Shown here one piece after another: positions 22,629 through 43,798 of a stretch of DNA of 64,000 nucleotides. Made by a program: the position numbers and the translations under genes. This DNA is from Phycisphaerae bacterium (GTDB taxonomy: Bacteria; Planctomycetota; Phycisphaerae; Sedimentisphaerales; Anaerobacaceae), in contig JAIPFM010000144.1 of assembly GCA_021736645.1 (NCBI GenBank), positions 1-64,000 on the forward strand, written 5' to 3'. The notes beneath the pieces were generated by a model that saw only the letters and a program-made list of their open reading frames with translations, searched no databases and was not told where the DNA came from. Every line of letters starts with the position of its first letter. Position 1 is the first letter of the stretch.

Positions 22629-23303
22629 ATGCGTTTATTGATTGTGGAAGATTATGCCCCGCTCCGTCGCTCTCTGACTAAGGGATTGACGGAAGCGGGG
22701 TTTGCAGTGGATCACACAGGAGATGGTGAGGAGGGTCTATGGTTTGCTCGGAGCAATGACTACGATGTGATTATTCTGGATATCATGCTGCCTGGACTGG
22801 ATGGCTTGAAGGTGTTGGACACGATTCGCGCAGAAGGCAAGAGCACTCATGTCTTGCTCCTGACTGCCAAAGACATGGTGGCGGATCGTGTCAAGGGATT
22901 GAATATCGGGGCGGACGACTACCTCATCAAACCGTTTGCATTTGAAGAGTTGCTTGCGCGCGTGCGTGCCCTGGTACGCAGGGAGTATCAGCAGAAACGG
23001 CCCTGTATTGAAGTCGGGGATCTTTGCATTCACATGGATTCGCAGCGGGTATTGCTCGGCCAGACCAGTATAGACCTGACACCCAGGGAATACGCGCTCC
23101 TGGAGTACCTGGCCATGCGCGTGGGCCAGCTGGTGTCTCGTACGGACATTTGGGATCACGTGTATGAATTCAATGCCTGTGCCACGAGCAATGTGGTGGA
23201 TGTGTATATTGGATACCTGCGTAAGAAAATCGACCGTGCCGGCATGACTCCTCTCATCAAGACCATACGTGGGCGTGGTTATGTGTTGGGGGAGTTGCTG
23301 TGA
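22629..23303 (+). CDS. OmpR/PhoB-family response regulator (system 1)
   Basis: 224 aa. Receiver domain with the acidic pocket (LLIVEDYAP), phospho-acceptor Asp51 in VIILDIMLPGLDG, Thr in LLLTAKD and Lys in DDYLIKPFAFEELLAR. The C-terminal winged helix includes LTPREYALLEYLAMRVGQLVSRTDIWDHVYE and VVDVYIGYLRKKID, typical of PmrA/QseB/CusR-like regulators. The stop overlaps the kinase start by 4 nt (23300-23303). It is 37 nt after the PepSY-like gene and probably in one operon. Candidate targets are the 11-bp-spaced repeats at 21920 and 31167. Confidence 0.95.
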   Translation: MRLLIVEDYAPLRRSLTKGLTEAGFAVDHTGDGEEGLWFARSNDYDVIILDIMLPGLDGLKVLDTIRAEGKSTHVLLLTAKDMVADRVKGLNIGADDYLIKPFAFEELLARVRALVRREYQQKRPCIEVGDLCIHMDSQRVLLGQTSIDLTPREYALLEYLAMRVGQLVSRTDIWDHVYEFNACATSNVVDVYIGYLRKKIDRAGMTPLIKTIRGRGYVLGELL

Positions 23304-28156: not shown

Positions 28157-28840
28157 ATGCGTATTTTGATCGTAGAAGACGATTGTGAACTGGCGGACAT
28201 CCTCAGGCGGGCCCTGACCGAGCAGTTGTATCATGTGGATATAGCCTCGGAGGGCCAGACAGCCGAGCATCTGCTGCGATCGGAGACATTTGATGCCATC
28301 ATTCTGGACTGGATGCTGCCGCTGGTCGACGGGATCACTGTGTGCCGGAATTTTCGGGCCGCAGGCAAGACCACACCGGTGATCCTGCTGACTGCACGTG
28401 ATAAGGTGGAGGACCGGATTATGGGCCTGGACGCCGGGGCTGACGACTATCTGGTCAAGCCGTTTTCCATGGGGGAACTGCTGGCGCGGATCAGGGCGCT
28501 GCTTCGCAGGTCAGAATCACAGCCCCAAGAGGTGCTTGAGGTCGGCACGCTCAGCCTGGACCCGAGTCAGTCCTACATTCAGCAGGGGGCTCGCAGGATT
28601 GAGCTGACGGCCAGGGAATTTGCCCTGATGAAGTTCTTTATGCGTCATCCCGATCAACTGGTCACACGCACGGCCATACTGGAAGATGTGTGGGATGCCA
28701 ATTATGAAGGACTGGGCAATGTGGTGGACGTGTATGTGAATTATCTTCGCAACAAACTCGAGCAGGAAGGCGAGCCCCGCATGATCGAGACCGTGCGAGG
28801 CCGTGGGTATATCCTGAGAGGGCCATCCCATGTCACTTAG
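28157..28840 (+). CDS. OmpR/PhoB-family response regulator (system 2)
   Basis: 227 aa. Receiver with RILIVEDDCELADILRRAL, phospho-acceptor Asp51 in AIILDWMLPLVDG, LLTARDKVEDR and DDYLVKPFSMGELLARIRALLRR. The winged helix has LTAREFALMKFFMRHPDQLVTRTAILEDVWD and VVDVYVNYLRNKLE. It overlaps the kinase start by 11 nt. It follows feoB after 24 nt, linking this system to iron uptake. PmrA, QseB and CusR are the nearest functional analogues by layout. Confidence 0.95.
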   Translation: MRILIVEDDCELADILRRALTEQLYHVDIASEGQTAEHLLRSETFDAIILDWMLPLVDGITVCRNFRAAGKTTPVILLTARDKVEDRIMGLDAGADDYLVKPFSMGELLARIRALLRRSESQPQEVLEVGTLSLDPSQSYIQQGARRIELTAREFALMKFFMRHPDQLVTRTAILEDVWDANYEGLGNVVDVYVNYLRNKLEQEGEPRMIETVRGRGYILRGPSHVT

Positions 28841-30617
28841 TATTTCCCAGCGTCTTACGCTGACTGTGGCACTGATGACCGGGCTGATCCTGGTACCTGC
28901 GTGCACGCTGCTCTGTTTGACATTGAAACGCACCATGGAAGCCAGTGTTCTGGATCTGGCCTATTCTCAGGCCTTGGAGGTCGAACGCAGCGTCTGGACG
29001 CAACTGGATGAGGATATCCTGTTCGATTTTGAAGGCCAGCGTGTCACCTTTGATACGCTCAATATTGCAAAATCCGATTGGGGACTCATTCGAGGCAACG
29101 GCCTTGTGGATACTGCCGCGGGTGTCCTGAAAGACGAGTCTGTGTTGCCCGCCGAATGCACGCGCGTCTTGCGTCTCCTGTCGAATCGTTCTTTTGCCGT
29201 GGCTGCTGTGCCATTGACACCGGATCATCCTTTCACATGGGTGGATTTGCCCGAACCTGTTAGGCACACCATTGAAGACCGAATGGCCGGCGGCACCTTT
29301 CTCTGGGCCAAGGCCGATGTCCTGAAAGAAGACAACATCTATGTTGTACAGATGCTCGATGCGACGCAGATCATGATGTTTTCAGTCACTGAGCAGGGTG
29401 AGTGTGTGGAGGTTGGGGCGGACCCTCTCATCCAGTCACTGCCGAGCGGCATGGCTGAAATTCTGTCGCAGGGGCAGGGGCTGCTCGCGCACAGAATCAC
29501 AGGGTGGCACGTGTATGAGGGAGAATTAATTGCCGAGGTGCAGGGTGTGGACCCCAATGGGGTACAGATCCATGTGGGAGTCAATCGTTTTGGCCAGGAA
29601 TATGAATTGGATGAGAACGGCGTGCCTGCAGCCCTGCTGGAGCCGTCCAGGCTCTATGTGATGGCCGCTATGGACATCACCCGGGAAAAGGCCAGAGCCA
29701 CTATGCTGGGCGGAGGCATCATGTTGGGCGGCGTCGGAATATGGGGACTGTTCATTGCCGTTGCCTGGCTGGTGACGAAGCGAGCCCTGGGGCCGGTGCA
29801 TGACATGATTCTGCAGGCAGACCGGATCATGCCCTCCAAACTGAATGAACGCCTGCCGGTGCGGAGCGCGACGGATGAATTGGGCCGTGTAACCAAAACA
29901 GTGAATCGCATGCTGGATCGTCTGCAGCAGGGATATCTGCGGGAACGGCAGTTTACCGGTGATGTGTCTCACGAATTGAGGAATCCCCTGGCCAAGGTGA
30001 TGGCTGAAATTGAACTGGCTCAGTCCAAGGAACGTGATGCAAAGGAACATCAAGAGATCCTCGCGCGACTCAAGGGCTACACGCAGGCATTGCAGCACCT
30101 GGTAGACTCTTTGCTTATGCTGGCCCGTCTGGACACCGGCTTTCAGAACCTGGAGATTCAGCCTTTTGACGTGGCGGAACTGGTGGTTGAAACACTGAGG
30201 ACATTCTCCAAGGCCTTCGCCTCCAGAATCCATATTGAACTGGGGCCCAGTATCAGCCCCTTGATGGCCATTGGGCACGCGTCGCTTATCAGTGTCCTGC
30301 TGGGCAATCTGCTCGACAATGCCCTGAGGTACAGCCCGGAGACCAGTCCTGTTCACTTGCGTATCCACCGACAGGGAAAGACCATTCAGTTCAGGGTGGA
30401 AGACGAGGGCTTTGGCATTCCGGAAGACCAACGCATCCTCGTGTTCGATCGTTTCTACCGCCTTGAAAAATCACGTTCCAAGAAAACGGGCGGCGCGGGT
30501 CTTGGCCTGGCCATTGTGCAGGCCATTGCCGAGATGCACCACATGACTGTGGACATCACACAGGCGCACACACGAGGGACCGTTGTGAGTTTCGCTTTGC
30601 CTGCACAACAAGATTAA
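28830..30617 (+). CDS. Sensor histidine kinase (system 2)
   Basis: 595 aa. TM1 at residues about 10-32, a large extracytoplasmic region (about 33-290), TM2 at about 293-316, HAMP (TKRALGPVHDMILQADRIMPSKLNERLPV), HisKA with His381 in RQFTGDVSHELRNPLAKVMAEIELAQ, and an ATPase domain with LLGNLLDNALRYSP and GGAGLGLAIVQAIAEMH. The sensor domain is about twice the size of that in system 1 and has no motif I can name. The start codon lies inside the response regulator gene (11-nt overlap). No terminator is evident after the TAA; the GC-rich hairpin element follows about 65 nt later. Confidence 0.95.
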   Translation: MSLSISQRLTLTVALMTGLILVPACTLLCLTLKRTMEASVLDLAYSQALEVERSVWTQLDEDILFDFEGQRVTFDTLNIAKSDWGLIRGNGLVDTAAGVLKDESVLPAECTRVLRLLSNRSFAVAAVPLTPDHPFTWVDLPEPVRHTIEDRMAGGTFLWAKADVLKEDNIYVVQMLDATQIMMFSVTEQGECVEVGADPLIQSLPSGMAEILSQGQGLLAHRITGWHVYEGELIAEVQGVDPNGVQIHVGVNRFGQEYELDENGVPAALLEPSRLYVMAAMDITREKARATMLGGGIMLGGVGIWGLFIAVAWLVTKRALGPVHDMILQADRIMPSKLNERLPVRSATDELGRVTKTVNRMLDRLQQGYLRERQFTGDVSHELRNPLAKVMAEIELAQSKERDAKEHQEILARLKGYTQALQHLVDSLLMLARLDTGFQNLEIQPFDVAELVVETLRTFSKAFASRIHIELGPSISPLMAIGHASLISVLLGNLLDNALRYSPETSPVHLRIHRQGKTIQFRVEDEGFGIPEDQRILVFDRFYRLEKSRSKKTGGAGLGLAIVQAIAEMHHMTVDITQAHTRGTVVSFALPAQQD

Positions 30618-30682
30618 GGCACTGAAGGGTTTCATTTTTAGCAGCGTCTTATGCCTCCATGAGCAGCCAAAGATCTCTGCGA

Positions 30683-30829
30683 CTTAGACACTCTAAGCCA
30701 CCCTGCCGGCTTCGGCTCGCTGCAGCGGCCGTCTGCAGCGTTGGCCGGCATCGATCCCCGGAGGACCTGTTTCGGCCGCCTTGCATCAGGCCGCTTCGAT
30801 CAGCCTCCCCCTCGGGGCAGGCGAGCCGA
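30683..30829. other. GC-rich multi-hairpin element (possible structured RNA or REP-like repeat)
   Basis: Within about 150 nt lie several perfect stems: CTTAGA-cac-TCTAAG (30683-30697); CGCTGCAG-7 nt-CTGCAGCG (30718-30740); GCCTCCCC-CTC-GGGG-c-AGGC (30803-30822); and the outer arms TCGGCTCGC (30712-30720) with GCGAGCCGA (30821-30829). GC content is clearly above the flanks and no convincing reading frame covers it. It sits between the system 2 kinase and a decayed gene on the minus strand. The active strand cannot be told from symmetry alone. Confidence 0.45.
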
Positions 30830-30852
30830 TGCGACGGTTTTATTAGAGCGCC

Positions 30853-31092
30853 TTACTTAAAATGAACTCGAACGCCCACGGTGGCCATGTTAGACCCGCC
30901 TGACACATTATTGATCAGCCCAAAGACACCGGAGCGATGGTGGATTCGTGTGAACAAGGACACACGCGGATGATGAGGGATCTTACACTCCCATTCGAGC
31001 ATTAGATAATTCAGGACATTTGATGTTTCTCCCATTTTATCTATGGCAAACACACTCCAGGTGACAAAATTCTAGTTGGGCAATAGCCGCAT
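30853..31092 (-). pseudogene. Remnant of an outer-membrane beta-barrel gene (C-terminal part)
   Basis: On the minus strand the reading frame gives NYLMLEWECKIP, then RIHHRSGVFGLINN and SGGSNMATVGVRVHFK, ending with a terminal amphipathic strand and near-terminal Phe as in outer-membrane barrels. In-frame stops interrupt it upstream (TAG at 31074-31072 between LLPN and NFVTWSVF, and TAA further up), and the arn promoter region lies immediately beyond, so only the last 70-80 codons survive. The HRS triplet recalls the H-x-S motif of PagL-type lipid A deacylases, but that link is weak. An intact start codon and ribosome site are missing. Confidence 0.5.
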
Positions 31093-31166
31093 GTCAAGAC
31101 CTTAACACCCTGCAGAGGAAATAGACACAGGCGATATTCTTCTGATTTGGTCAATAATTAGTGCTC

Positions 31167-31211
31167 CCTAATGTCTTTCTAATCTTCCTCTAATCAAGTG
31201 CCGGGTACAGT
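31167..31211 (+). promoter_or_regulatory. PmrA-box-like triple direct repeat and promoter of the arn operon
   Basis: CCTAAT (31167-31172), TCTAAT (31178-31183) and TCTAAT (31189-31194): three YCTAAT hexamers each exactly 11 bp apart, with 5-nt spacers. PmrA of enteric bacteria binds YTTAAK-N5-YTTAAK upstream of arn. A TACAGT -10-like hexamer (31206-31211) places the third half-site beside the -35 region, as at promoters activated by OmpR-family regulators. The arnB ATG is at 31283. Confidence 0.6.
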
Positions 31212-31282
31212 GCGCCCGACAACAGGGAACATTGTAGTTCCATGACAGGATTCAAACTGTGCCACAGGGGGGCATTGGAAGT

Positions 31283-32440
31283 ATGAGACACGCGTTTTTG
31301 CCGTTTTCGAGGCCGTCCATCACGGAAGGTGACATCGAGGCTGTGGCCCAGGTGCTTCGGTCCGGTTGGATTACGACCGGGCCGAAGGCGTCCGAGTTCG
31401 AACAGGCCTTTTCCCACTATACCGGCGCGTGCGGCAGCGTGGCTGTGGCCTCTGCCACCGCAGGCATGCACGTGATGCTCGCGGCCCTGGGCATTGGCCC
31501 GGGTGACGAGGTCATCACGCCTTCCATGACCTGGGTGTCCACCGTGAATCTGATCACACTGGCCGGTGCCACACCGGTGTTTGCAGATATTGACAGGGAC
31601 ACACTCATGGTGTCTGCCCGGACCATTGAACCCTGCCTGTCCTCGAGAACGCGTCTGATCGTGCCGGTCCATTTTGCCGGTTCGTGTGTGGACATGGACC
31701 CGATACGAAATCTGGCCAGGGACAAGGGCGTGGCCTTGGTTGAAGATGCGGCGCATGCCGCAGGCACGCAGTACAACCGCTGTACCATAGGCCGCACAGG
31801 CACGGCCATTTTTTCCTTTCATCCGATCAAGAACCTGACAACCGGGGAAGGCGGCATGGTGTGTTCAGATGACCCGGACCTGCTGGACCGGATCAAGCGA
31901 CTGAAGTTTCACGGTCTGGGTGTGGATGCCTTTGACCGCACCATGCAGGGCCGATCCCCCCAGGCCCAGGTGTTGGAACCCGGGTACAAGTACAATCTGA
32001 CTGACATGGCAGCCGTGCTCGGCCTGGGCCAACTGGCCAGGCTGGATGCCATGAACCAGCGGCGCAGAGTGCTGGCTGAGTGTTATCAGCAGCATCTAAT
32101 GGACATTGATGAGGTCATGCCCCTGGCAGAGGTCCCGCATTGCACGCGCCATGCGTGGCATCTTTTTATTGTACGTATAGATACCGACCGTACAGGGATG
32201 AGTCGTGATGAATTCATGGCCCGGCTCAAGGCCCTGAACATTGGTACAGGCCTGCATTTCAGGGCTGTGCATCAACAGAAATATTTCGCAGAGACTCTGG
32301 GATTGAGTCCCGGATCTCTGCCCAATACGGAATGGAATTCGGACCGAATCTGTTCTCTGCCATTGTGTCCGGACATGACCGAAGAGGATGTGCTGGATGT
32401 GGTTGAAGCGGTCAAAGCAGTGTTAAGTGTTAAGTGTTAA
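31283..32440 (+). CDS. arnB: ArnB, UDP-4-amino-4-deoxy-L-arabinose aminotransferase
   Basis: About 385 aa from the ATG at 31283 (MRHAFLPFSRPSI matches the usual ArnB start MSDFLPFSRP; an upstream GTG at 31259 adds eight unmatched residues). DegT/DnrJ/EryC1/StrS fold, with SGWITTGPKASEFE, SSATAGMH-like SATAGMHVML, DEVITPSMTWVSTVNLI, VEDAAHA and the PLP-binding Lys183 in FSFHPIKNLTTGEGG. The distal half KFHGLGVDAFDR...APGYKYNLTD-like segment and TEWNSDRICSLPLCPDMTE are ArnB-specific. It converts UDP-4-keto-pentose to UDP-L-Ara4N in the cytoplasm. It is the first gene of the arn operon. Its last codons (VLSVKC) fall in a heptamer array. Confidence 0.95.
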   Translation: MRHAFLPFSRPSITEGDIEAVAQVLRSGWITTGPKASEFEQAFSHYTGACGSVAVASATAGMHVMLAALGIGPGDEVITPSMTWVSTVNLITLAGATPVFADIDRDTLMVSARTIEPCLSSRTRLIVPVHFAGSCVDMDPIRNLARDKGVALVEDAAHAAGTQYNRCTIGRTGTAIFSFHPIKNLTTGEGGMVCSDDPDLLDRIKRLKFHGLGVDAFDRTMQGRSPQAQVLEPGYKYNLTDMAAVLGLGQLARLDAMNQRRRVLAECYQQHLMDIDEVMPLAEVPHCTRHAWHLFIVRIDTDRTGMSRDEFMARLKALNIGTGLHFRAVHQQKYFAETLGLSPGSLPNTEWNSDRICSLPLCPDMTEEDVLDVVEAVKAVLSVKC

Positions 32441-32474: not shown

Positions 32475-33467
32475 ATGAAACCTTATTGTTCAATTGTGAT
32501 TCCGGTGTTTAATGAGAAGGGCAACCTGGACGAACTCATTGACCGGGTCTTGACAACCTGCCAACTCCTGGATCAACCCTTTGAGGTCATTCTGGTGGAT
32601 GACGGCAGTCGGGACGGGTCTGCTCAGAAGATCGTGGCTGCTGCCGAGCATTTTGAATCCCAGGTCGTGGGTGTGCTGCTGAATCGTAATTACGGTCAGC
32701 ATGCTGCGGTCATGGCAGGATTCACCGAGGCCAGGGGCGACGTGGTGGTGACCCTCGATGCGGACCTGCAAAATCCGCCCGAGGAGATTCCCCGTCTTGT
32801 GGCAGCGATCGAGGAAGGGGCCGACGTGGTGGGGACCGTGCGCATGAATCGCCAGGACAGCCTGTTTCGACGCCTGGCATCACGCATTGTCAACCGGGCT
32901 GCGCAAAAGGCCACGGGCGTGTACATGCGGGATTACGGCTGTATGCTGCGTGCCTACCGCATGCCCATTGTCAAGGCCATGCTGCAGTGCCATGAGCGCA
33001 GCACCTTTATTCCAATCCTGGCCAACAGCTTTGCAGCCAGGACGCGTGAAATTGAAGTCCGTCATGCAGAACGTACTCAGGGTGATTCCAAGTACAGCCT
33101 GTGGAAGCTGATCAATCTGCAGTTCGACCTGCTGACATCCATGACCACGGTGCCGATTCGTCTTCTGAGTGTCCTGGGATTGCTCTTGTCCATGGTGGGT
33201 ATGGTCGTGGGATTGATCCTCCTGGGAGGACGTCTTATGTATGGCTCAGAGTGGGCCGTGCACGGCGTCTTGACGCTCATGGCAGGGCTCTTCTTCTTTA
33301 TGGGCGTGCAAATGATCGGCCTGGGCCTGCTGGGAGAGTACATTGGACGCATCTATCATGATGTCCGTGCCAGACCTCGCTATTTTGTGCGCCAGGTCGT
33401 TGGCCGCTCAGAAAATACGGTAACCGAATGGTCGCAGGCCACTGAAATATCTATGGAGATAAAATGA
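32475..33467 (+). CDS. arnC: ArnC, undecaprenyl-phosphate 4-deoxy-4-formamido-L-arabinose transferase
   Basis: 330 aa GT2-family enzyme. The catalytic domain shows [32 protein letters not shown] and [16 protein letters not shown], with two C-terminal transmembrane helices (about residues 230-262 and 268-295) before the amphipathic end. ArnC moves Ara4-formyl-N from UDP to undecaprenyl phosphate on the inner face of the inner membrane. DLQNPPEE and [13 protein letters not shown] are characteristic of ArnC and close to DPM1-type enzymes; operon context settles it as ArnC. It overlaps arnA by 4 nt (ATGA). Confidence 0.93.
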
Positions 33468-35539
33468 TGACATGCATTGTATTAGGCTATCATAACATCG
33501 GCTGCGCGGGTCTGGAGGCTCTCTTGGAAAATGGCTTTGATGTGGCCGCCGTGTTTACCCATACGGATGATCCTCACGAGACCGTGTGGTTTGATTCCCT
33601 GGCCGAGAAGGCAGCAGCAGCCAATATCCCTGTGTTTGCCCCGGACGATATCAATCATCCGCTCTGGGTGCAGCGTATTGCGGACATGAAACCGGATGTG
33701 ATCTTCTCATTCTATTACCGTCATCTGGTCAGCCAGGCCATCCTGGATATCCCGCCGCAGGGCTGCATCAACCTGCACGGTTCTCTGCTGCCCAGGTACC
33801 GGGGACGCTGCCCGATCAACTGGGTTCTGCTCCATGGCGAAAAAGAGACTGGCGTAACCCTCCATCACATGACTGTCAAGCCGGATGACGGTGACATCAT
33901 TGATCAGGTGCGTTTTGAAATTGATGATCAGGACACGGCACTCACTCTGCATCACAAGTCGACTGAGGCGGCCCAGGATCTCTTGACCCGGACCCTGCCT
34001 CTGATCAAGAATGGTCAGGCCCCGCGCAGACCCCAGGATTCGTCGCTGGCCAGCTATTTTGGCGGGCGCCGTCCAGCAGACGGTCTGTTGAACTGGCATG
34101 GATCGGCAGACGACATACGCAATGCCATCAGGGCCCAGACGCGGCCGTATCCAGGGGCGTTTTCGTATCTGGCCCAGACCCGATGTACGATCTGGGAAGC
34201 CACTGTCGTACCACAGGCATCATCTCAGCCCGGAACCGTGATGTCTGTGTTACCCCTGATCATTGCGTGCGGCAGAGATGCCATTCAGGTGGATTTCGGC
34301 CAACAGGCTGGCGGCGTGTATGTGAACGGGATGCAACTGGCCCGGGATTTAAATCTGGCTCAGGGCATGCGATTCGGTGACGATCCTGCCACTCGACTGG
34401 AGACCACACGGATCAAGCGCGTCCTGATCCTGGGCGTCAATGGTTTTATTGGCAGTGCCCTGAGTGAACGCCTGTTGCGCAGCGGGCGTTATGAAGTGCA
34501 CGGCCTGGATCTTAGATCCACCTATGTCAAGGACCTGATCGGCAGGCCCGGGTTTCATTTTGAAGAGGGCGACATTTCCATTCACCGCGAGTGGATCGAG
34601 TATCACGTCAAAAAGTGCGACATTGTCCTGCCCCTGGTGGCCATTGCCACGCCCATTGAATACACACGCAATCCATTGAAGGTATTTGAACTGGACTTCG
34701 AAGAAAATCTCCGCGTGGTTCGCTACTGTGTGAAATACGGCAAGCGTCTGATCTTCCCTTCCACGTCCGAGGTCTATGGCATGTGCCAGGACGAACATTT
34801 TGACGAGGAGACATCCAATCTTGTGGTGGGGCCAATCAACAAACAACGCTGGATCTACAGTTGTTCCAAGCAACTGTTGGATCGTGTGATCTGGGCCTAT
34901 GGTGACAAGGAAAAACTGCCGTTTACCCTGTTTCGTCCGTTTAACTGGATCGGGCCCAAGCTCGACAGTTTGAACTCTGCGCGCATTGGCAGTTCACGTG
35001 CCATCACGCAACTTATACTTAATCTTGTGGAAGGCACGCCCATCCAGTTGATCGATGGGGGGCAGCAGAAACGCTGCTTCACAGACGTGGCAGATGGGAT
35101 CGAGTGCCTCTTCCGCATCATTGAAAACAAGGATCGGATCTGCGAGGGCCGGATCTTCAATATCGGCAATCCGGACAACGAGTTCAGCATTCGCGACCTG
35201 GCTGAAATGCTGATCAGACAGTTTATACAGCATCCCCTGCGTGATCAATTCCCGCCGTTCGCAGGCATCCAGGAGATCGAGAGCGGCACCTACTATGGCA
35301 AGGGATACCAGGATGTGCAGCACAGGAAACCCAGTATCCGAAATGCCAGGCGTCTTTTGGACTGGCATCCCAGTATTGGATTGGAAAAATCCGTGAGCCA
35401 GGCCCTGGACTTTTTCCTGCGTCAGGCCATGGCCGGGGGGTACGTGGATCAGGATAGGGAGGTCGGACCGTGCATCCCGATCGAGTCCATGCCGGTCCAG
35501 CACAAGAAAGCGTCCAGGCTGGAGCCTGTCACAAGTTAG
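33464..35539 (+). CDS. arnA: ArnA, bifunctional UDP-Ara4N formyltransferase / UDP-glucuronate decarboxylase
   Basis: 691 aa (E. coli ArnA is 660). The N-terminal formyltransferase domain has [19 protein letters not shown] (catalytic Asn and His) and DDGDIIDQ (Asp). The C-terminal dehydrogenase/decarboxylase from about residue 322 has [26 protein letters not shown] (Ser and Glu pair), and [10 protein letters not shown] (Tyr-x3-Lys). Both active sites appear intact. The extra length is mostly a C-terminal tail after about residue 660. The enzyme oxidatively decarboxylates UDP-GlcA and formylates UDP-Ara4N. The UDP-glucose dehydrogenase that would supply UDP-GlcA is not in this window. Confidence 0.95.
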
Positions 35540-35560
35540 GGTATGATCAGGATGGGTGCC

Positions 35561-36997
35561 ATGTCGTTATTTACAAAATGCATGTGGATGGGCGTGGCTG
35601 CCCTGGGGGTCGTGGGAGCGGCTGGGTGTGTGTCTTATGAAGACCAGCCGTTGTCTGCGGAAGACAGGCTGGACAGTTATATGGCGCGCACGCTCGACAG
35701 CCATGAACTCGGTGTCTACGTGCACCAGGTCATGGCTTCGGACGCCTGGCCCCCTGGGCAATGGGATCTGCCTCACCTGACCCTGGCTGCTTTCTTTTAT
35801 AATCCTGAACTGGCCGTGGCCCGAGCCCGGTGGGCCGTGACTGAGGCATCGGTATCCTCTGCGTCTCAGCGTCCCAACCCCACGCTCTCGCTGGGTCCCG
35901 GCTACAATACCACGACGGGTAAATCAGGTGATGTGTCTCCCTGGATTGTGGGGATGGCCTTGGATGTGCCGCTGGACACGGCGCGCAGGCGCGGGGTCAG
36001 AGCAGCGCAGGCGACATGGCTGTCCGAGGCGGCCCGCCTTGAGATCGCGAGTACGGCCTGGACTGTGCGTCATCAGGTGCACGAGGCCTTTTTGACGCTG
36101 TATGCGGAGACTCAGTTGACGCAGACTCTCCACAGAGAGTGGCAGTTGAACGGTGACAAGGTCCGTTTCCTGACACATGCGTATGAAGCCGGTGAAGTGT
36201 CGGGTCTGACACTGTCTCAGGCCAGGATTGAACGGGCCAGAAGTCATACAGCCTGGTTGAAATCCGGCCAGGACAGATCGCTTGCCGTGGCCAGACTGGC
36301 CGAGGCTGTGGGCCTGCCTGCGGAATCCTTTGAGGGGATTCAGTTTGATTTTCAGGCCTTTGAAACCGAGGTTCCCTCCGAGGTACCGACCGCCGAGATC
36401 CAGCGTCAGGCCCTGTTGAATCGTGCAGATCTGCTGGCAGCCCTGGCCGAGTATCAGGCCAGTCAGTTCGCGTTGCAGCAGCAGATTGTCAGGCAGTACC
36501 CTGAGATCCAGATCGGTCCGGGTTATGAATTCGATCAGGGCGATGACAAATGGAGTCTGGGGCTGTCAGTGACACTGCCTGTGTTCAATCAAAACCAGGC
36601 AGAGATTCGCGTGGCCGAGGCCGCTCGTGAAGAGGCCGCTGCAATATTCCAGGCCATGCAGGCCCAGGTGATTGCACAGATCACCCAGGCCGTGACCCAG
36701 TACAGGGCCAGTGTCGAGGTCTTACGTTCGTCCGAAGGCCTCGCGCGTGACATGGCCGTTCAAATGGAACGGGTTGAGACAATGGTCCAGGTCGGAGAAT
36801 CTCTGGCTGTGGACAGGCTGGACAAGGCCCTTGAATACAGTGCTGCGCAAACAGCGAGACTTGAGGCCCGTATCCAGGTGCACAAGGCCTTGTCGCAGAT
36901 CGAGGACGTGATGCAGATTGCGTCTGATCTGTCAGAGGGGTCGCAAAAAGGACTGGCCATGTTGACCACGCATCAAGGAGAAACAGCCCATGAATAG
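35561..36997 (+). CDS. TolC/NodT-type outer membrane efflux lipoprotein
   Basis: About 478 aa from the ATG at 35561 (AGGA 8-9 nt upstream); alternative in-frame ATGs at 35543 and 35552 would lengthen it by up to six residues. Signal with a lipobox (GVVGAAGC), then two repeats of the outer membrane efflux protein fold with long coiled-coil helices (AFFYNPELAVARARWAVTEASVSSASQRPNPTLSLGPGY, and LLNRADLLAALAEYQASQFALQQQIVRQYPEIQIGPGYEFDQG). It forms the outer-membrane exit duct of the tripartite pump encoded next and overlaps the adaptor gene by 8 nt. It starts about 20 nt after arnA with no terminator between, inside the arn operon. Confidence 0.88.
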   Translation: MSLFTKCMWMGVAALGVVGAAGCVSYEDQPLSAEDRLDSYMARTLDSHELGVYVHQVMASDAWPPGQWDLPHLTLAAFFYNPELAVARARWAVTEASVSSASQRPNPTLSLGPGYNTTTGKSGDVSPWIVGMALDVPLDTARRRGVRAAQATWLSEAARLEIASTAWTVRHQVHEAFLTLYAETQLTQTLHREWQLNGDKVRFLTHAYEAGEVSGLTLSQARIERARSHTAWLKSGQDRSLAVARLAEAVGLPAESFEGIQFDFQAFETEVPSEVPTAEIQRQALLNRADLLAALAEYQASQFALQQQIVRQYPEIQIGPGYEFDQGDDKWSLGLSVTLPVFNQNQAEIRVAEAAREEAAAIFQAMQAQVIAQITQAVTQYRASVEVLRSSEGLARDMAVQMERVETMVQVGESLAVDRLDKALEYSAAQTARLEARIQVHKALSQIEDVMQIASDLSEGSQKGLAMLTTHQGETAHE

Positions 36998-38084
36998 ATG
37001 GACTCAATGGATTGGACTGGGTGTCTTGTTGGCAGGGGCCTGGGGCGTCTGGTGGCTGTTCACGGGCATGCCCGTGTCTGAGGAGGTCTCTGAAACGCCC
37101 GTGGAGACTGTGGTGCCAGTCCAGGTGGGGCAGATCGAGGTCAAGACCCTTCATGGGTATGTGCAGGCCTATGGGGCTGTGGTGCCGGATCCCGGTACAG
37201 GAGATCGCTTGCCGGGCAGTGCGTGCGTGACATCGCCTCTGGACAGTCAGATCACGGAGGTGACCTGCAAAATCGGGCAGTCCGTATCCCAGGGTCAGCC
37301 TCTGTTCCGTTTGTATGATCGCGATGCCCAACTGGCCGAGCAGGAGGCCAGGCAATCCTTGGATGCAGCGCTGCAGACTCTGGCACGTCAGGAAAAACTG
37401 ATGGCCCTGGAGAGCACCTCAGAGAAGCTCTTACTGGAAGCCAAGCAGCAATGGGCTCAAGCGCAAAGTCGCTTTAGTCAGACTCAGGCTGCACTGACCC
37501 TGTATGAGATCACGGCACCCAGCGCAGGCACCATTACCGATATACCCGTCAGATCCGGTCAGGCCGTGACTCGTGCTCAGGTCCTGGCCACGCTCGTGAA
37601 CCAGGATCAACTGGTCATTCGGACCGGGGTCCCCAGTGCACAGGTCGGCGCAGTGCAGCCCGGCCAGACCGTGGAGATTCGGGTACAGGACGATGCCCAT
37701 GCTGCGGAGTCTGCCATGAAGGGCAAGGTGCTTTATGTGGATTCTCAGGTGGATGCGGACAACGATACGGTGATGGTGCTGACACAGTTGCCATCACAAT
37801 CCGGCCTGCGCAACGGCCAGTTTGTCAGTACGCGTATTGTGGTGGCTGAACATCTCGATTGTCTGGCGGTGCCTGTGGAGAGTGTGGTGACCACCGTTGA
37901 GGGTCAGACTGTGGTGGCGCTGGTCCAGGGGGATGAGGCCGTGCCTACGCCCGTGCAACCGGGCCTGGCTGAGGGGGCATGGATAGAGATCACAGGCCAG
38001 GGATTGGTCAAGGATATGCCAGTCGTCACACGCGGTGCCTATGGGTTGCCCGGTCGGACACGTATCCGAGTCATTGGACAATAG
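36990..38084 (+). CDS. RND periplasmic adaptor (membrane fusion protein)
   Basis: 364 aa. An N-terminal membrane anchor (about residues 8-26) is followed by a lipoyl-like half (ACVTSPLDSQITEVTCKIGQSVSQGQPLFRLYD), an alpha-helical hairpin (AEQEARQSLDAALQTLARQEKLM...LLLEAKQQWAQAQSRFSQTQAALT), the second lipoyl half (LYEITAPSAGTITDIPVRSGQAVTRAQVLATLV), then beta-barrel and membrane-proximal domains. It bridges the RND pump and the TolC-type duct. It lies 20 nt upstream of the pump gene and overlaps the duct gene by 8 nt. The substrate is not deducible. Confidence 0.92.
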   Translation: MNRWTQWIGLGVLLAGAWGVWWLFTGMPVSEEVSETPVETVVPVQVGQIEVKTLHGYVQAYGAVVPDPGTGDRLPGSACVTSPLDSQITEVTCKIGQSVSQGQPLFRLYDRDAQLAEQEARQSLDAALQTLARQEKLMALESTSEKLLLEAKQQWAQAQSRFSQTQAALTLYEITAPSAGTITDIPVRSGQAVTRAQVLATLVNQDQLVIRTGVPSAQVGAVQPGQTVEIRVQDDAHAAESAMKGKVLYVDSQVDADNDTVMVLTQLPSQSGLRNGQFVSTRIVVAEHLDCLAVPVESVVTTVEGQTVVALVQGDEAVPTPVQPGLAEGAWIEITGQGLVKDMPVVTRGAYGLPGRTRIRVIGQ

Positions 38085-38104
38085 GCTTAGCCATTGGAGT
38101 TTGC

Positions 38105-41100
38105 ATGGGTTCAAACGACTCTCCTGAATACGGAACACCATCTTCATCCCCGCTGGGGCGGTTTGCCACACGCCACACTTTTGCGATCCTGTTTGTGACG
38201 GTGTCCCTGTGTCTGGCAGGCGCGTACTGTGCACTGCATCTGTCCTCCTCCGTCTTTCCCCAGACGGATTTTCCCCGTGTGGTGATTCTGGTCGACAACG
38301 GTGTGATGCCCGGCGACGAAATGATGGCCACGATTACACGTCCGATCGAGGAGGTCATGAAGGACATTCCAGGTGTCACCACGATCCGGACGGCCACGGG
38401 TCGGGGCTCTGCAGAGATCAATGTATTCTTCAACTGGCGCGTGGACATGGTGCAGTCCGAGCTCTATGTGCTGGGTCGTTTGTCTCAGATACAGAGCACG
38501 CTGCCGCCGGATACCGAGACTCGCGTGCACCGTCTGACCTTTTCGGCGTTTCCGATCATTGGTGTGAGCCTGACCAGTGAAACACGGGACATCACGCATC
38601 TGTGGGAAACCGCCCGATATGATCTGAAGCCTCGTTTCCTGCGTATTTCAGGCGTGGCCAGGGTTGATCTGGTGGGGGGGCGCACCACAGAATACCATGT
38701 CACTGTGGATCCGATCCGGCTGCAGAGTGCCCAGTTGAGTTTGTCGGAGGTGACCGACGCACTGACGCAGAATAACCTGGTCTCACCTGCGGGCATGCAC
38801 GAGGAGAATCACAGCCTCTACCTGACTGTGGTGGATGGGCGACTGCGCGGCCCCGAGGACATAGACGACTTCGTGGTGAAGGTCGTGAAGGGCCGACCGA
38901 TCCGAATCGGTGACGTGGCGACCGTGGCCCGCGGGCCGGAGCCGATCTACAATATTGTGACGGCCGATGGGCGTGAGGCCGTGCTGCTCAACATTCGAAG
39001 TCAGCCTGACGGGAGTACGCTGAACATTGCGCACGCCCTGAAGCAGACGCTGGAGGCTCTGAAAACGGAACTGCCGCCTGACATGAAACTGGCGTTCTTT
39101 TACGATCAATCCCTGATCGTGCGAGAGTCCGTTCATAGTGTGTGGGAGGCCATTGTATTCGGCGTGTTCCTGTCCGTGGTCATCCTGTTTCTGTTCCTCA
39201 AGAACTGGGGCTCCACCTTTGTGGCCATCCTGGTGATTCCGGTCACTGTCCTGATTACGGCCATGACCATGAAGCTGCTGGGCATGACCTTCAATCTCAT
39301 GACCCTGGGTGGTATTGCCGCATGTATTGGCGTGGTCATTGACGATGCCATTGTGGTGGTGGAGGCCATCCACACCAAGCTGGTTCAGGGTATGAACAGG
39401 ATTGAGGCCGTGCAGACGGCCGTTAGCGAGATGTTCAAACCGCTGGTGGCATCCACATTGACGCCGGTGGTGGTCTTCTTCCCCTTGACATTCCTGGACG
39501 GGATCACGGGCGTGTTTTTCCGGGCCCTGGCCATCACCATGGTGGTGGCGCTGTTGATGTCCCTGGTCCTGGCCGTGACACTGACACCCTCCATGGCCGG
39601 GTGGGTGATGCGCGTTCGTAAAACCGGGGGGTCGGCTGAGTCCATCGTGGCCTGCGGGCCCGTGCTCAGGGGGGCCATTGGCATCTATGAGGCGGTTTTG
39701 AAAATGGCATTGCAGCACCGATGGGTGACCCTGGGCCTGTGCCTGCTGTTGATACCGGCTGGTGCAGGTGTGTATCAGCGCTTGGACAGCGAATTTCTGC
39801 CTCCCATGGATGAAGGGGGCTTTGTAATCGATTACCAGGGACGGGCAGGAACCAGTCTGGCCCAGACAGACGGGATGCTGAAACAGGCTGAGATCATTCT
39901 TGTGGGCACACCGGAAGTGGAGAGTTATTCCCGCCGCACAGGTGCCCGCCTGGCCCTGGCCATAGCAGAACCCCACACCGGTGATTTTCTGGTCAAGCTC
40001 AAGCCGGATCGTGATCGCAGTACAGAGGACGTCATCTCTGAGCTGCGCAGTCGATTTAACGAAGCCGTGCCCGGGCTGGAATGGGAATTTCCCGGTATAC
40101 TCGGTGACCTGATCGGGGATTTAATGTGGTCTCCATCACCCATTGAAATCAAGCTGTTCTCCACGGACCTCGAGTTTCTCAAAGACCAGGCGCCAAAGAT
40201 CGAAGCTCAGATACAGGCGGTTCATGGGGTGGTCGATACGTTCGACGGTCTTGTTTACACGGGCAATGCCTTGAGTTTGCACGTGCGTTCCCTGGCCGCT
40301 CAGCGTTTTGGATTGACCACAGAGTCCATTGCCAATGCCGTGAGTACGGCCATGCTCGGGCAGACGGCCTCATCCATCCTGGAAGGAGACCGTGTGATCG
40401 AGATTCGTGTGCGGGTGGATTCCAATAGTCTGGCGCGTGTGTCGACATTGCAGGATTTGCCCATTCGGTCTCAGTCCGGCACGCTCGTCAGATTGTCTCA
40501 AGTGGCCGATATTGTGGAAGAACCCGGTCAACTCGAGCTTCGCAGGGAGGACATGCGTCAATGTGTGGCTGTCACAGCCCGTCTGGAGGGTCGCGACCTG
40601 GGCAGCGGTATGGCGGAGATCAAAAAACAACTGGACCAGGATGCCTCGATTCCGCCCGGAACCCTGGATTTTGGAGGCCTGTACGAACAACAGCAGACCT
40701 CGTTCATCAATCTGTTGATTGTCCTGGCCATGGCCATCATTCTGGTCTTCACAGTGCTGTTGATTGAGTTTCGAAGTTTCAAAGAACCTCTGGCCATCGT
40801 GTTTGGTGCGGTGCTCGCCCTGTTTGGCACACTCCTGGGCCTGATGTTGACTGGGACCTCCCTGAATGTGGTTTCCTTTCTGGGCGCGATCATCGGTATC
40901 GGGATCGTGGCCAAAAATGGAGTCCTGATGCTGGATCTGGTGGAGCACCACCGCATGCAGGGGCTCAGTTGGGATAATGCCCTGATCCGTTCCGGGAGTC
41001 GGCGTCTGCGACCGGTACTCATGACCAGCCTGGCCACGATTCTGGGCATGCTTCCCCTGGCGTATGGTATTGGGTCGGGTGCGGATATGCTGCGTCCCCT

Positions 41101-41197
41101 GGCCATTGCAGTCATTGGCTCAGTGTGTATGTCTGTGTTGTTCTCGCTGGTGGCCACACCGGTGCTGTATCGAAGTCTATTTGGCGGTCGTTCATGA
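38105..41197 (+). CDS. RND multidrug efflux transporter (inner membrane pump)
   Basis: About 1030 aa from the ATG at 38105 (GGAG upstream), with the twelve-helix RND topology and two large periplasmic loops. The proton-relay acidic pair is present in TM4 (GGIAACIGVVIDDAIVVVEAIH), and the second half ends with FLGAIIGIGIVAKNGVLMLDLVEHHR and RRLRPVLMTSLATILGMLPLAYGIGSGADM. The IDDAIVVVE form resembles hydrophobe/multidrug (HAE) rather than heavy-metal pumps. Its stop overlaps the arnD start (ATGA at 41194-41197), which ties efflux and Ara4N synthesis together translationally. The natural substrate is unknown; a cationic peptide or lipid-active compound would suit the operon. Confidence 0.93.
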   Translation: MGSNDSPEYGTPSSSPLGRFATRHTFAILFVTVSLCLAGAYCALHLSSSVFPQTDFPRVVILVDNGVMPGDEMMATITRPIEEVMKDIPGVTTIRTATGRGSAEINVFFNWRVDMVQSELYVLGRLSQIQSTLPPDTETRVHRLTFSAFPIIGVSLTSETRDITHLWETARYDLKPRFLRISGVARVDLVGGRTTEYHVTVDPIRLQSAQLSLSEVTDALTQNNLVSPAGMHEENHSLYLTVVDGRLRGPEDIDDFVVKVVKGRPIRIGDVATVARGPEPIYNIVTADGREAVLLNIRSQPDGSTLNIAHALKQTLEALKTELPPDMKLAFFYDQSLIVRESVHSVWEAIVFGVFLSVVILFLFLKNWGSTFVAILVIPVTVLITAMTMKLLGMTFNLMTLGGIAACIGVVIDDAIVVVEAIHTKLVQGMNRIEAVQTAVSEMFKPLVASTLTPVVVFFPLTFLDGITGVFFRALAITMVVALLMSLVLAVTLTPSMAGWVMRVRKTGGSAESIVACGPVLRGAIGIYEAVLKMALQHRWVTLGLCLLLIPAGAGVYQRLDSEFLPPMDEGGFVIDYQGRAGTSLAQTDGMLKQAEIILVGTPEVESYSRRTGARLALAIAEPHTGDFLVKLKPDRDRSTEDVISELRSRFNEAVPGLEWEFPGILGDLIGDLMWSPSPIEIKLFSTDLEFLKDQAPKIEAQIQAVHGVVDTFDGLVYTGNALSLHVRSLAAQRFGLTTESIANAVSTAMLGQTASSILEGDRVIEIRVRVDSNSLARVSTLQDLPIRSQSGTLVRLSQVADIVEEPGQLELRREDMRQCVAVTARLEGRDLGSGMAEIKKQLDQDASIPPGTLDFGGLYEQQQTSFINLLIVLAMAIILVFTVLLIEFRSFKEPLAIVFGAVLALFGTLLGLMLTGTSLNVVSFLGAIIGIGIVAKNGVLMLDLVEHHRMQGLSWDNALIRSGSRRLRPVLMTSLATILGMLPLAYGIGSGADMLRPLAIAVIGSVCMSVLFSLVATPVLYRSLFGGRS

Positions 41198-42138
41198 TAA
41201 GAAAAAATGCACCAAAACAGACCACGTCTTTGGGGCTTCGGATCGATGTGGATACCCTGCGCGGTACCAAGGTGGGTGTACCGACGCTTCTGCGCCTGCT
41301 GGACGAGGCCCAGGTCAAGGCCAGCTTTTTCTTTTGCGTGGGGCCGGACAACATGGGACGTCATCTCTGGCGTCTCCTCAGGCCTGCGTTTTTATGGAAA
41401 ATGCTTCGCACGCGGGCCGCCTCGCTGTACGGGTGGGACATCCTCCTGAGAGGCACGTTCGGGCCAGGGCCTCGCATAGGGAGACGTCTGGGCTGGCTCA
41501 TCCAGGAGGTCGAAATCGCCGGTCATGAAGTGGGGCTTCACGCCTGGGATCACCATGACTGGCAGGCCCATATCGAGACGCTCAGCAGGGAAGAGGTCTT
41601 TCGCTGCCTGGAAAAGGGTGTGACTGAGCTGACGCGCATCCTGGGGCATCCGCCCCGGTGTTCGGCTGCGCCTGCGTGGAAGTGCACGGATCAGGTGCTT
41701 GAGGCCAAAGAACAGTTTGATTTCAGCTACAACAGTGATTGTCGGGGTCAAACCTGTTTCTGGCCGCTTGTTCTGGAGCGTGCTGTCTCCCAGGCGCAGG
41801 TGCCTGTGACACTGCCCACGTACGACGAAATGATTGGATGTCACGGTGTCACGGACGATAATTTCAATCAGGCCATTCTTGACCGGGTGAAGCCCAAGGC
41901 GATGAATGTCCTGGCCATCCATGCGGAAGTGGAGGGGGGCGTCAAGCAGGGGCTGTTTCAGCAGTTTCTTCAGGAGGCCAAGTCACGGGACATTGAAATC
42001 ATGCCCCTGGGACAAATATTGAAACGGTATCCAGCCAAGACCTATGGGCTCATTGAACGCTCGGCCATTGAGGGCAGAGATGGGTGGCTGGCCAGACAAG
42101 GTGATGTGAAAAACAACCAGGACAAAGATGATGCGTAA
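41194..42138 (+). CDS. arnD: ArnD, 4-deoxy-4-formamido-L-arabinose-phosphoundecaprenol deformylase
   Basis: About 314 aa from the ATG at 41194. Polysaccharide-deacetylase (NodB) fold with LRIDVDTLRGTKVGVPTLLRLL, FFFCVGPDNMGRHLWRLLRPAFLWKMLRTRAASLYGWDILLRG and VGLHAWDHHDWQ, all close to ArnD (metal-binding Asp and His residues in place). It deformylates undecaprenyl-phosphate-Ara4FN before transfer to lipid A. The start is embedded in the RND pump stop, and the arnT gene starts 11 nt before its own stop. Normal length, intact. Confidence 0.95.
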   Translation: MIRKNAPKQTTSLGLRIDVDTLRGTKVGVPTLLRLLDEAQVKASFFFCVGPDNMGRHLWRLLRPAFLWKMLRTRAASLYGWDILLRGTFGPGPRIGRRLGWLIQEVEIAGHEVGLHAWDHHDWQAHIETLSREEVFRCLEKGVTELTRILGHPPRCSAAPAWKCTDQVLEAKEQFDFSYNSDCRGQTCFWPLVLERAVSQAQVPVTLPTYDEMIGCHGVTDDNFNQAILDRVKPKAMNVLAIHAEVEGGVKQGLFQQFLQEAKSRDIEIMPLGQILKRYPAKTYGLIERSAIEGRDGWLARQGDVKNNQDKDDA

Positions 42139-43798
42139 AGGTTCTCTCTTACTGATACTCGGTTATTTGATGGTGTATATTCTGCCCCTGGGCGTGCGTC
42201 CTCTGGTGATCCCGGACGAGACACGGTATGCGCAGATGGGGCGGGAGATTCTGGACTCCGGGGATTGGATCGTGCCGCACCTCAATGGTCTTCGGTATTT
42301 TGAAAAGCCCATTTTGGGGCACTGGGCCCATGCCATCAGCCTCAAGGTCCTGGGTAACCATGCCTTTGCCGCGCGTCTGCCCTCTGCACTGGCAGCCGGT
42401 GTCACGGCCGTGCTCCTGCTGGTCCTGGTGAGCCGTTTTGGGGGCGGTCCCTCATTGGGCCTGTTGTGTGCCGGTTTCTTTCTGACCTGCATCGAGGTGT
42501 TCATCGTGGGCACCCTCTGTGTGCTTGACAGTCTGCTGGCTCTGTTTGTCACAGGGGCCATGGTGGCCTTCTTTTTTGCGTATCATGCAGACACGGCCGC
42601 CAGAAAACGTGCGTATGCTGTGCTGTTCGGGCTCTGCTGCGGCCTGGCCTTCTTGACCAAAGGACTGCTGGGTGTGGTCATTCCCGGTGTGGCGATCGTG
42701 CCGTTTCTGATCTGGCAGCGACGCACGCACCAGCTATTTCGGCATCTGTGGCTCGTGATCGTGACGTTTCTGGCCGTGGCCGCACCCTGGCTCATCCTGA
42801 TCCAGCGCCGCGAACCGGATTTCTGGCACTATTTTTTCTGGGTGGAACACGTCGAGCGTTTTCTCAAACCGGGCACAGGCCAGCACCAGCAGCCCTTCTG
42901 GTATTTCATCCCGGTCCTGGTAGGGGGGTGTTTTCCCTGGACCCTGCTGCTTGTACCGGCCGGGTTAGGCCTGCGCAAGCTCGATGATCCGGACGGACTC
43001 TTGAAATATGCCATCTGCTGGCTCGTCTTTCCGTTTTTGTTTTTCTCCGCGAGCGGCGGCAAGCTGGCCACGTATATTCTACCCTGTTTTGTGCCGCTGG
43101 CCCTGTTGCTGGGCAAGGGCCTGTGGACCTACTGCCAGTCCGGGACTGCGGTGCACTTCAAGGGCGCCTTGCGCAACGGCGCGATCTTGTCGTTCTTGCT
43201 GGCAATCGGCATAGCTGCCACACAACTCCTGCCTCAGACTCCAAAGATCTATGGCCTGTCCGAGACGTGGAAATGGCAAGTCATGATCGCAGGAGGATTG
43301 TTGTTTGCCGGCGGTTTTTATCTGGCGGCCCGCGTGAAAACCGTGACACACAAGCTGACGTTTTGCCTGGTGTCACCCCTGGTCCTGATGTGTGCCGCCT
43401 CCTTCATCCTCCCGGACCAACTGAGAATCCGAAAAATGCCGGGCGAGTTTTTGAGAAAAAACATGCCGTATCTCCAGGCCGCAGACATCCTGTTTGCAGA
43501 TGAAGTGCTGTCACCCACGCTGGGTTGGTTTGCACATCGCCAGGATATTTTTATCCTCGGAGAAAAGGGAGAACTCGATTATGGCCTGGGCTACAGCGAT
43601 GCCAAGCACCGCTTTCTCAAGAATGAAGAATTCAAGGATTTCCTGATGTCTCACGCGGACAAGCATGTGGTCTTTCTGACCCGAACGCGTGATTATTACA
43701 ATGAATACGAACAGCTTTTGCCTCCGCCCACCCATTCAGAGTCCTCCGACGGTTTTACGCTGCTGGAGTATGATCCTGAACTGGTCTTGGGCCTATGA
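42128..43798 (+). CDS. arnT: ArnT, undecaprenyl-phosphate-Ara4N : lipid A transferase
   Basis: 556 aa GT83-family integral membrane enzyme with about eleven to thirteen transmembrane helices in the first 410 residues and a C-terminal periplasmic domain. The first periplasmic loop has DETRYAQMGREILDSGDWIVPHLNGLRYFEKPILGHW (Asp-Glu and FEKP motifs of ArnT/PMT enzymes). FLKPGTGQHQQPFWYFIPVL and the LPCFVPLALLL region are also ArnT-like. It moves Ara4N onto lipid A on the periplasmic side, lowering negative charge and polymyxin binding. ATG ATG at 42128-42133 leaves the exact start ambiguous. It is the last gene of the operon; a terminator follows about 110 nt later. Confidence 0.92.
   Translation: MMRKGSLLLILGYLMVYILPLGVRPLVIPDETRYAQMGREILDSGDWIVPHLNGLRYFEKPILGHWAHAISLKVLGNHAFAARLPSALAAGVTAVLLLVLVSRFGGGPSLGLLCAGFFLTCIEVFIVGTLCVLDSLLALFVTGAMVAFFFAYHADTAARKRAYAVLFGLCCGLAFLTKGLLGVVIPGVAIVPFLIWQRRTHQLFRHLWLVIVTFLAVAAPWLILIQRREPDFWHYFFWVEHVERFLKPGTGQHQQPFWYFIPVLVGGCFPWTLLLVPAGLGLRKLDDPDGLLKYAICWLVFPFLFFSASGGKLATYILPCFVPLALLLGKGLWTYCQSGTAVHFKGALRNGAILSFLLAIGIAATQLLPQTPKIYGLSETWKWQVMIAGGLLFAGGFYLAARVKTVTHKLTFCLVSPLVLMCAASFILPDQLRIRKMPGEFLRKNMPYLQAADILFADEVLSPTLGWFAHRQDIFILGEKGELDYGLGYSDAKHRFLKNEEFKDFLMSHADKHVVFLTRTRDYYNEYEQLLPPPTHSESSDGFTLLEYDPELVLGL

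Follow-up and report, generated by a model that had tools for sequence, protein, structure and literature searches.

Our analysis of a 64,000-nucleotide stretch of DNA (the window) indicates that three direct repeats upstream of arnB most likely constitute a Pho box—a prediction that, on sequence grounds, would place the arn operon together with its RND pump in the phosphate-starvation regulon. The array reads CCTAAT-N5-TCTAAT-N5-TCTAAT, with half-sites at positions 31167–31172, 31178–31183 and 31189–31194 of the + strand; they form tandem direct repeats with an 11-bp period from start to start, run in the same orientation as arnB and end about 90 bp before it. Both the sequence itself and a pattern search bear out the original prediction of a triple YCTAAT array at 31167–31194 with 11-bp spacing. 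A -10-like hexamer, TACAGT (31206–31211, + strand), lies 11 bp past the third half-site, and no good -35 hexamer could be found 17 bp before it; the third half-site occupies the expected -35 place instead. The array had been described as standing beside the -35 region; it is better put as replacing the -35 element, the arrangement typical of a Pho box (about 10 bp upstream of the -10, here at 11 bp). An Rfam search of positions 30500–31400 returned no match. On the − strand, a strong sigma-70-like promoter (TTGACA-N17-TAGAAT, 11/12) at 31069–31097 points away from arnB and reads into the gap after a kinase gene, where no Rfam match was found either.

The downstream operon, encoded on the + strand, follows the order arnB-arnC-arnA-[RND tripartite efflux]-arnD-arnT, with overlaps or gaps of <40 bp throughout. 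Its first gene, arnB (ORF 31283–32440), encodes the UDP-L-Ara4O aminotransferase (NF008658, 573 bits against a curated cut-off of 631) and starts at ATG 31283, with GTG 31259 as an alternative. It is followed by arnC (32475–33467; NF007986, 485 bits, cut-off 529) and a two-domain arnA (33464–35539; NF005998, 1081 bits, above the cut-off), and the operon closes with genes for the deformylase ArnD (41197–42138; NF011923, 395 bits, above the cut-off) and the L-Ara4N transferase ArnT (42128–43798; NF009784, 485 bits, cut-off 567). Between arnA and arnD lies a complete RND efflux system (35543–41197), comprising a TolC-like outer membrane factor (35543–36997; TIGR01844), a probable RND membrane-fusion protein (ORF 36990–38084; named by position and sequence, with no family match at 1e-45) and an RND permease (38108–41197; NF033617, 629 bits, below the cut-off), the start of which is uncertain inside a longer frame (37979–41197). 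In those relatives whose loci reach that far, arnD comes directly after arnA, so that the pump looks, from this gene order, like an insertion into the arn operon in this lineage.

In the window, YCTAAT-N5-YCTAAT occurs only as the two overlapping pairs of the arnB array, with 0 expected from 100 shuffles; the genome search named in the original prediction recovered the same two pairs alone from the whole assembly (5,883,370 bases, 88% complete; reversed control, 1). A motif common in random intergenic sequence would have spoken against the prediction, and it proved not to be common—a triple YTAAY array appeared in 0 of 20,000 trials with simulated intergenic sequence of the same length and composition. 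A search of the genome for degenerate copies brought to light a further array, ATTAAT-N5-TCTAAT-N5-CCTAAC-N5-CTTAAT, on contig C139 upstream of a DUF3450 gene, with its four half-sites 10 bp before the -10 element TACTAT; in the three-mismatch search of the exact motif the background equalled the control, though this array surfaced through it. The C139 locus contains, in order, genes for a TonB-dependent receptor, DUF3450, ExbB-like proteins, ExbD, TonB, a TPR protein and a PhoB-type regulator, followed by a pstS-like gene, with the Exb/TonB names assigned from position and sequence. The position of this array beside a phoB/pstS-like locus suggested a Pho box, an idea then tested on pstS. Across the genome, YTAAYN6YTAAYN6YTAAY gave 8 matches in 6 places (reversed control, 0), namely the pstS promoter (C34:3880–3930; four half-sites), two places at the C139 locus, the second at another of its genes, a paralogous locus on contig C35, one place on contig C142 and arnB; an additional array, one of its half-sites imperfect, belongs to the porin gene adjoining pstS. 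The triple array on C142 (L165 5240–5266) lies some 115 bp upstream of a gene for an alpha-L-fucosidase; having no clear phosphate link, this place is a point against the Pho reading.

For the test on pstS, the pstS-family loci of the genome and its relatives were compared: in the 400 bp upstream, 19 of the 30 have at least two YTAAY half-sites spaced at 11 bp and 16 have three or four, with arrays of three or more at 15 of the relatives' 29 loci. A matrix was built only from these 15 arrays of the relatives, with the window's own genome left out. When both strands of the window were scanned—the genome-wide comparison being made by pattern searches—the arnB array ranked first of about 128,000 positions at 15.8 bits (next, 12.6), a score within the range of the genome's own Pho arrays in the same matrix (11–24 bits). 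Among 59 genomes of the order, 27 four-half-site arrays were counted, compared with 2 for the control. Arrays were also found upstream of PhoB-type regulator genes in the relatives G144 and G135, and G076 has a PhoB-type gene, preceded by an array, that is convergent to arnT where the arn locus ends. The motif is found, as would be expected of a Pho box, at pst and phoB genes of both the same genome and its relatives; since autoregulation of phoB is usual, its occurrence before phoB genes ties the array to PhoB. Two genomes of the same genus (G052 and G053) differ from the window's genome in having neither a pstS-family match (TIGR02136) nor a triple YTAAY array. Among 29 other arrays, a TAnnnT hexamer follows at a spacing of 10 in 17 and of 11 in 2, and the 11 bp seen at arnB, against the usual 10, counts against the Pho reading. 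A further point against it is the final base, which is T in each of the arnB half-sites but C in 36 of 45 of the relatives' Pho half-sites and in the last half-site of every one of the 15 training arrays; in the genome's own Pho arrays, T is the final base in 13 of 18.

Five full-length OmpR/PhoB-type regulators are encoded in the genome, two of them in the window and the others on contigs C231, C101 and C139. The C231 gene adjoins a kinase gene and phoU, that on C101 is accompanied by a kinase, and that on C139 belongs to the pstS-like locus. Among NCBIfam models, PhoB matches the C231 and C139 proteins best, at scores below the curated PhoB cut-off, and a PhoB-type regulator is present, as a Pho box would require. 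The three share a recognition helix, DR(A/T)VD(V/A)(Q/H)I, of the same type as in the relatives' array-linked PhoBs, and the array-linked regulators of G144, G135 and G076 are 53–60% identical to the C139 and C101 PhoBs but 33–36% identical to the window pair. That pair had been correctly placed within 9 kb upstream of the array. The regulator at 22629–23303 (+ strand) is CusR/CzcR-like (TIGR01387, 243 bits; helix SNVVDVYI), and that at 28157–28840 (+ strand) is RppA/CusR-like (NF041734, 248 bits; helix GNVVDVYV). Of the two two-component systems upstream of arn, one is accompanied by a gene for a small acidic protein and the other stands at the end of a group of DtxR/FeoA-like and feoB genes. 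The suggestion that these regulators control arn found no support: their closest models are CzcR/CopR and RppA, not PmrA (190–209 bits against a cut-off of 330, with higher scores for the CzcR/RppA models), their recognition helix is of a different kind, and no YTAAY array was found before the operons of either, so that we judged them unlikely to bind the array. No PmrA orthologue was recognized among the five full-length OmpR-type regulators, the window pair falling below the PmrA cut-off. This outcome cautions against assigning arn regulators by proximity to two-component genes.

The resemblance to a PmrA box noted in the original prediction is reasonable by sequence. A PmrA/BasR-like box would be bound by the regulator at 22629 or 28157, acting with its kinase, and would activate arn on exposure to metal ions or cationic peptides. 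Indeed, arn is the classic PmrA target, both regulators lie close by, enteric arnB loci (fetched as ArnA relatives) bear YTAAK pairs, in some cases including CCTAAT, 10 bp upstream of the -10, and G076 encodes, divergently from a glycosyltransferase-arn cluster that bears a different triple array, a regulator whose helix is PmrA-like. However, control by a PmrA-like protein is unlikely here, because arrays of this class turn up again at pstS and phoB loci and are absent from the operons of both window regulators, whose NVVDVY helix differs from that of the PhoBs and whose sequences match CusR-type models best. Additionally, there is no enrichment of PmrA-type pairs in which a half-site ends in G (YYTAAG-N5-YYTAAK, 4 in the genome vs 20 in the control). 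Compared with the hexamers of the PmrA box, YTTAAK-N5-YTTAAK, the half-sites can be read either way: YCTAAT differs from YTTAAT at position 2, and 18 of 107 enteric half-sites have C there. A third half-site was thought to be one more than usual, which is true in comparison with most enteric PmrA boxes (two half-sites in 43 of 50) but not with Proteus arnB, which has three, or with the Pho boxes of this lineage, which have three or four.

The letters of the half-sites separate the two families only weakly, as the likelihood under the Pho model exceeds that under the PmrA model by only about 4 bits. Promoter geometry was tried as a discriminator and dropped, since a 10-bp spacing is equally found in enteric PmrA boxes. 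With the -10 spacing common to PmrA boxes and so small a likelihood gap, the assignment depends on the genome context and on the classes of regulator, and it is the genome context that decides. The small gap and the OmpR-family geometry common to both would also suit dual binding, in which PhoB and another OmpR-family regulator integrate phosphate and envelope signals; with no second-regulator sites of the same class seen elsewhere in the window, we hold this to be more doubtful still. Least credible of all is that the repeat arose by chance and plays no part in regulation. The motifs are short, and in 0.4% of the simulated regions a triple hexamer repeat of one kind or another, similar in quality and spaced at 10–12 bp, did appear. 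Yet the array is unique in 5.88 Mb, has the position and orientation of a promoter element, keeps the -10 spacing and matches an independently derived Pho matrix, all of which supports the earlier view of a head-to-tail OmpR/PhoB-family half-site array at a promoter.

With the array read as a Pho box, scarcity of phosphate would lead to phosphorylation of one of the PhoB-type regulators (C139, C101 or C231), which would then bind the three YCTAAT half-sites head to tail, replacing the -35 element, and recruit sigma-70 RNA polymerase to TACAGT, 11 bp downstream. Binding would presumably activate rather than repress, switching on arnB-arnC-arnA-[RND pump]-arnD-arnT, probably as a single transcript through arnT. 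The likely physiological purpose would be to cap lipid A with L-Ara4N, a sugar that contains no phosphate, when the cell responds to phosphate starvation.

Known systems offer several points of comparison. According to PMC1906773, the SphR (PhoB) box of Synechocystis pstS2, CTTAATTCtatCTTAATTTcgaCTTAATCA, has the nearly identical CTTAAT-N5-CTTAAT-N5-CTTAAT at 11-bp spacing, and SphR of cyanobacteria depends on three or more CTTAACCT-like repeats. The features that this box shares with the arnB array are a minimum of three direct repeats, an 11-bp period and a YTAA(C/T) core. SphR boxes are cyanobacterial and lie upstream of phosphate genes, whereas the array described here precedes an arn operon, has C as the second base in 3/3 half-sites and comes from a lineage in or near Sedimentisphaerales, an order of Planctomycetota. 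The E. coli Pho box, as summarised in the same paper, likewise consists of tandem direct repeats that have an 11-bp period and lie some 10 bp upstream of the -10; it has a CTGTCAT-type core and usually two repeats, as opposed to YYTAAY and three at arnB. In Klebsiella pneumoniae, PmrA binds CTTAAT-N5-CCTAAG in pbgP, and the enteric PmrA/BasR box (PMC3973317) agrees with the arnB array in its target operon, 6+5 geometry, similar TAA core and a -10 about 10 bp on. It differs in having PmrA as its regulator, usually two half-sites and G or T as the last base, as against three half-sites, PhoB-type regulators and C/T-type arrays common to pstS in the present case. Proteus arnB promoters (L040, L042, L043, L045, L048–L050) share with the arnB array three half-sites (YTAAK-like) at 11-bp spacing upstream of arnB; some of these half-sites end in G, no -10 is found at 10–11 bp in these promoters (TAnnnT lies at 21 bp in most), and the regulator is presumably a different one.

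A link between arn and phosphate has a precedent in Pseudomonas aeruginosa, where ArnB was detected only under Pi limitation, comparable to what we propose, with no direct Pho box at arn described in the accessible text (PMC9769906); in the same species, phosphate-limited membrane lipid remodelling raises polymyxin tolerance (PMC8528852). In the accessible portion of the open-access literature, we found no arn operon with a direct Pho box and no Pho box for planctomycetes. The present analysis brings a polymyxin-type lipid A modification into a predicted phosphate regulon outside proteobacteria, supplies a Pho-box matrix for an order lacking one in that searched portion, and suggests that L-Ara4N capping can be a phosphate-starvation response and not only a defence against cationic peptides.

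In the order, arn is rare (13 of 161 genomes), and none of the available stretches of its other arn loci, several of which are on contigs that end before arnB, has a YTAAY array at arnB, a point that counts against the Pho reading. Two relatives have arrays of at least three half-sites at their arn loci. In G076, the array TTTCGG-N5-TTTCAG-N5-TTTCAG (contig C114; L101 7900–8520) stands 10 bp before TACACT, between a divergent two-component system and the glycosyltransferase-arn cluster; the regulator beside the cluster has the helix SNVIEVHI, which we take to be PmrA-like. In G144, ATTCAG-N5-CTTAAG-N5-ATTCAG-N5-GTTCAT (contig C100; L102 6855–6893) precedes arnB. The different letters suggest that these arrays may serve regulators other than that of the arnB array described here. 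On balance, we lean slightly towards an evolutionary scenario in which the arn operon of this lineage, with its built-in RND pump, came directly under PhoB, so that starvation itself would trigger L-Ara4N capping, and G076 kept its own under the different, adjacent PmrA-like system, the one with triple boxes of the TTTCRG type—changed half-site letters would then have rewired the same operon from one OmpR-family regulator to another. Finally, the window's genome has a fourfold TTCAT repeat at 11-bp spacing (G000:C234:26199–26236), the sole place of this pattern in the genome and a possible box for another OmpR-family regulator.
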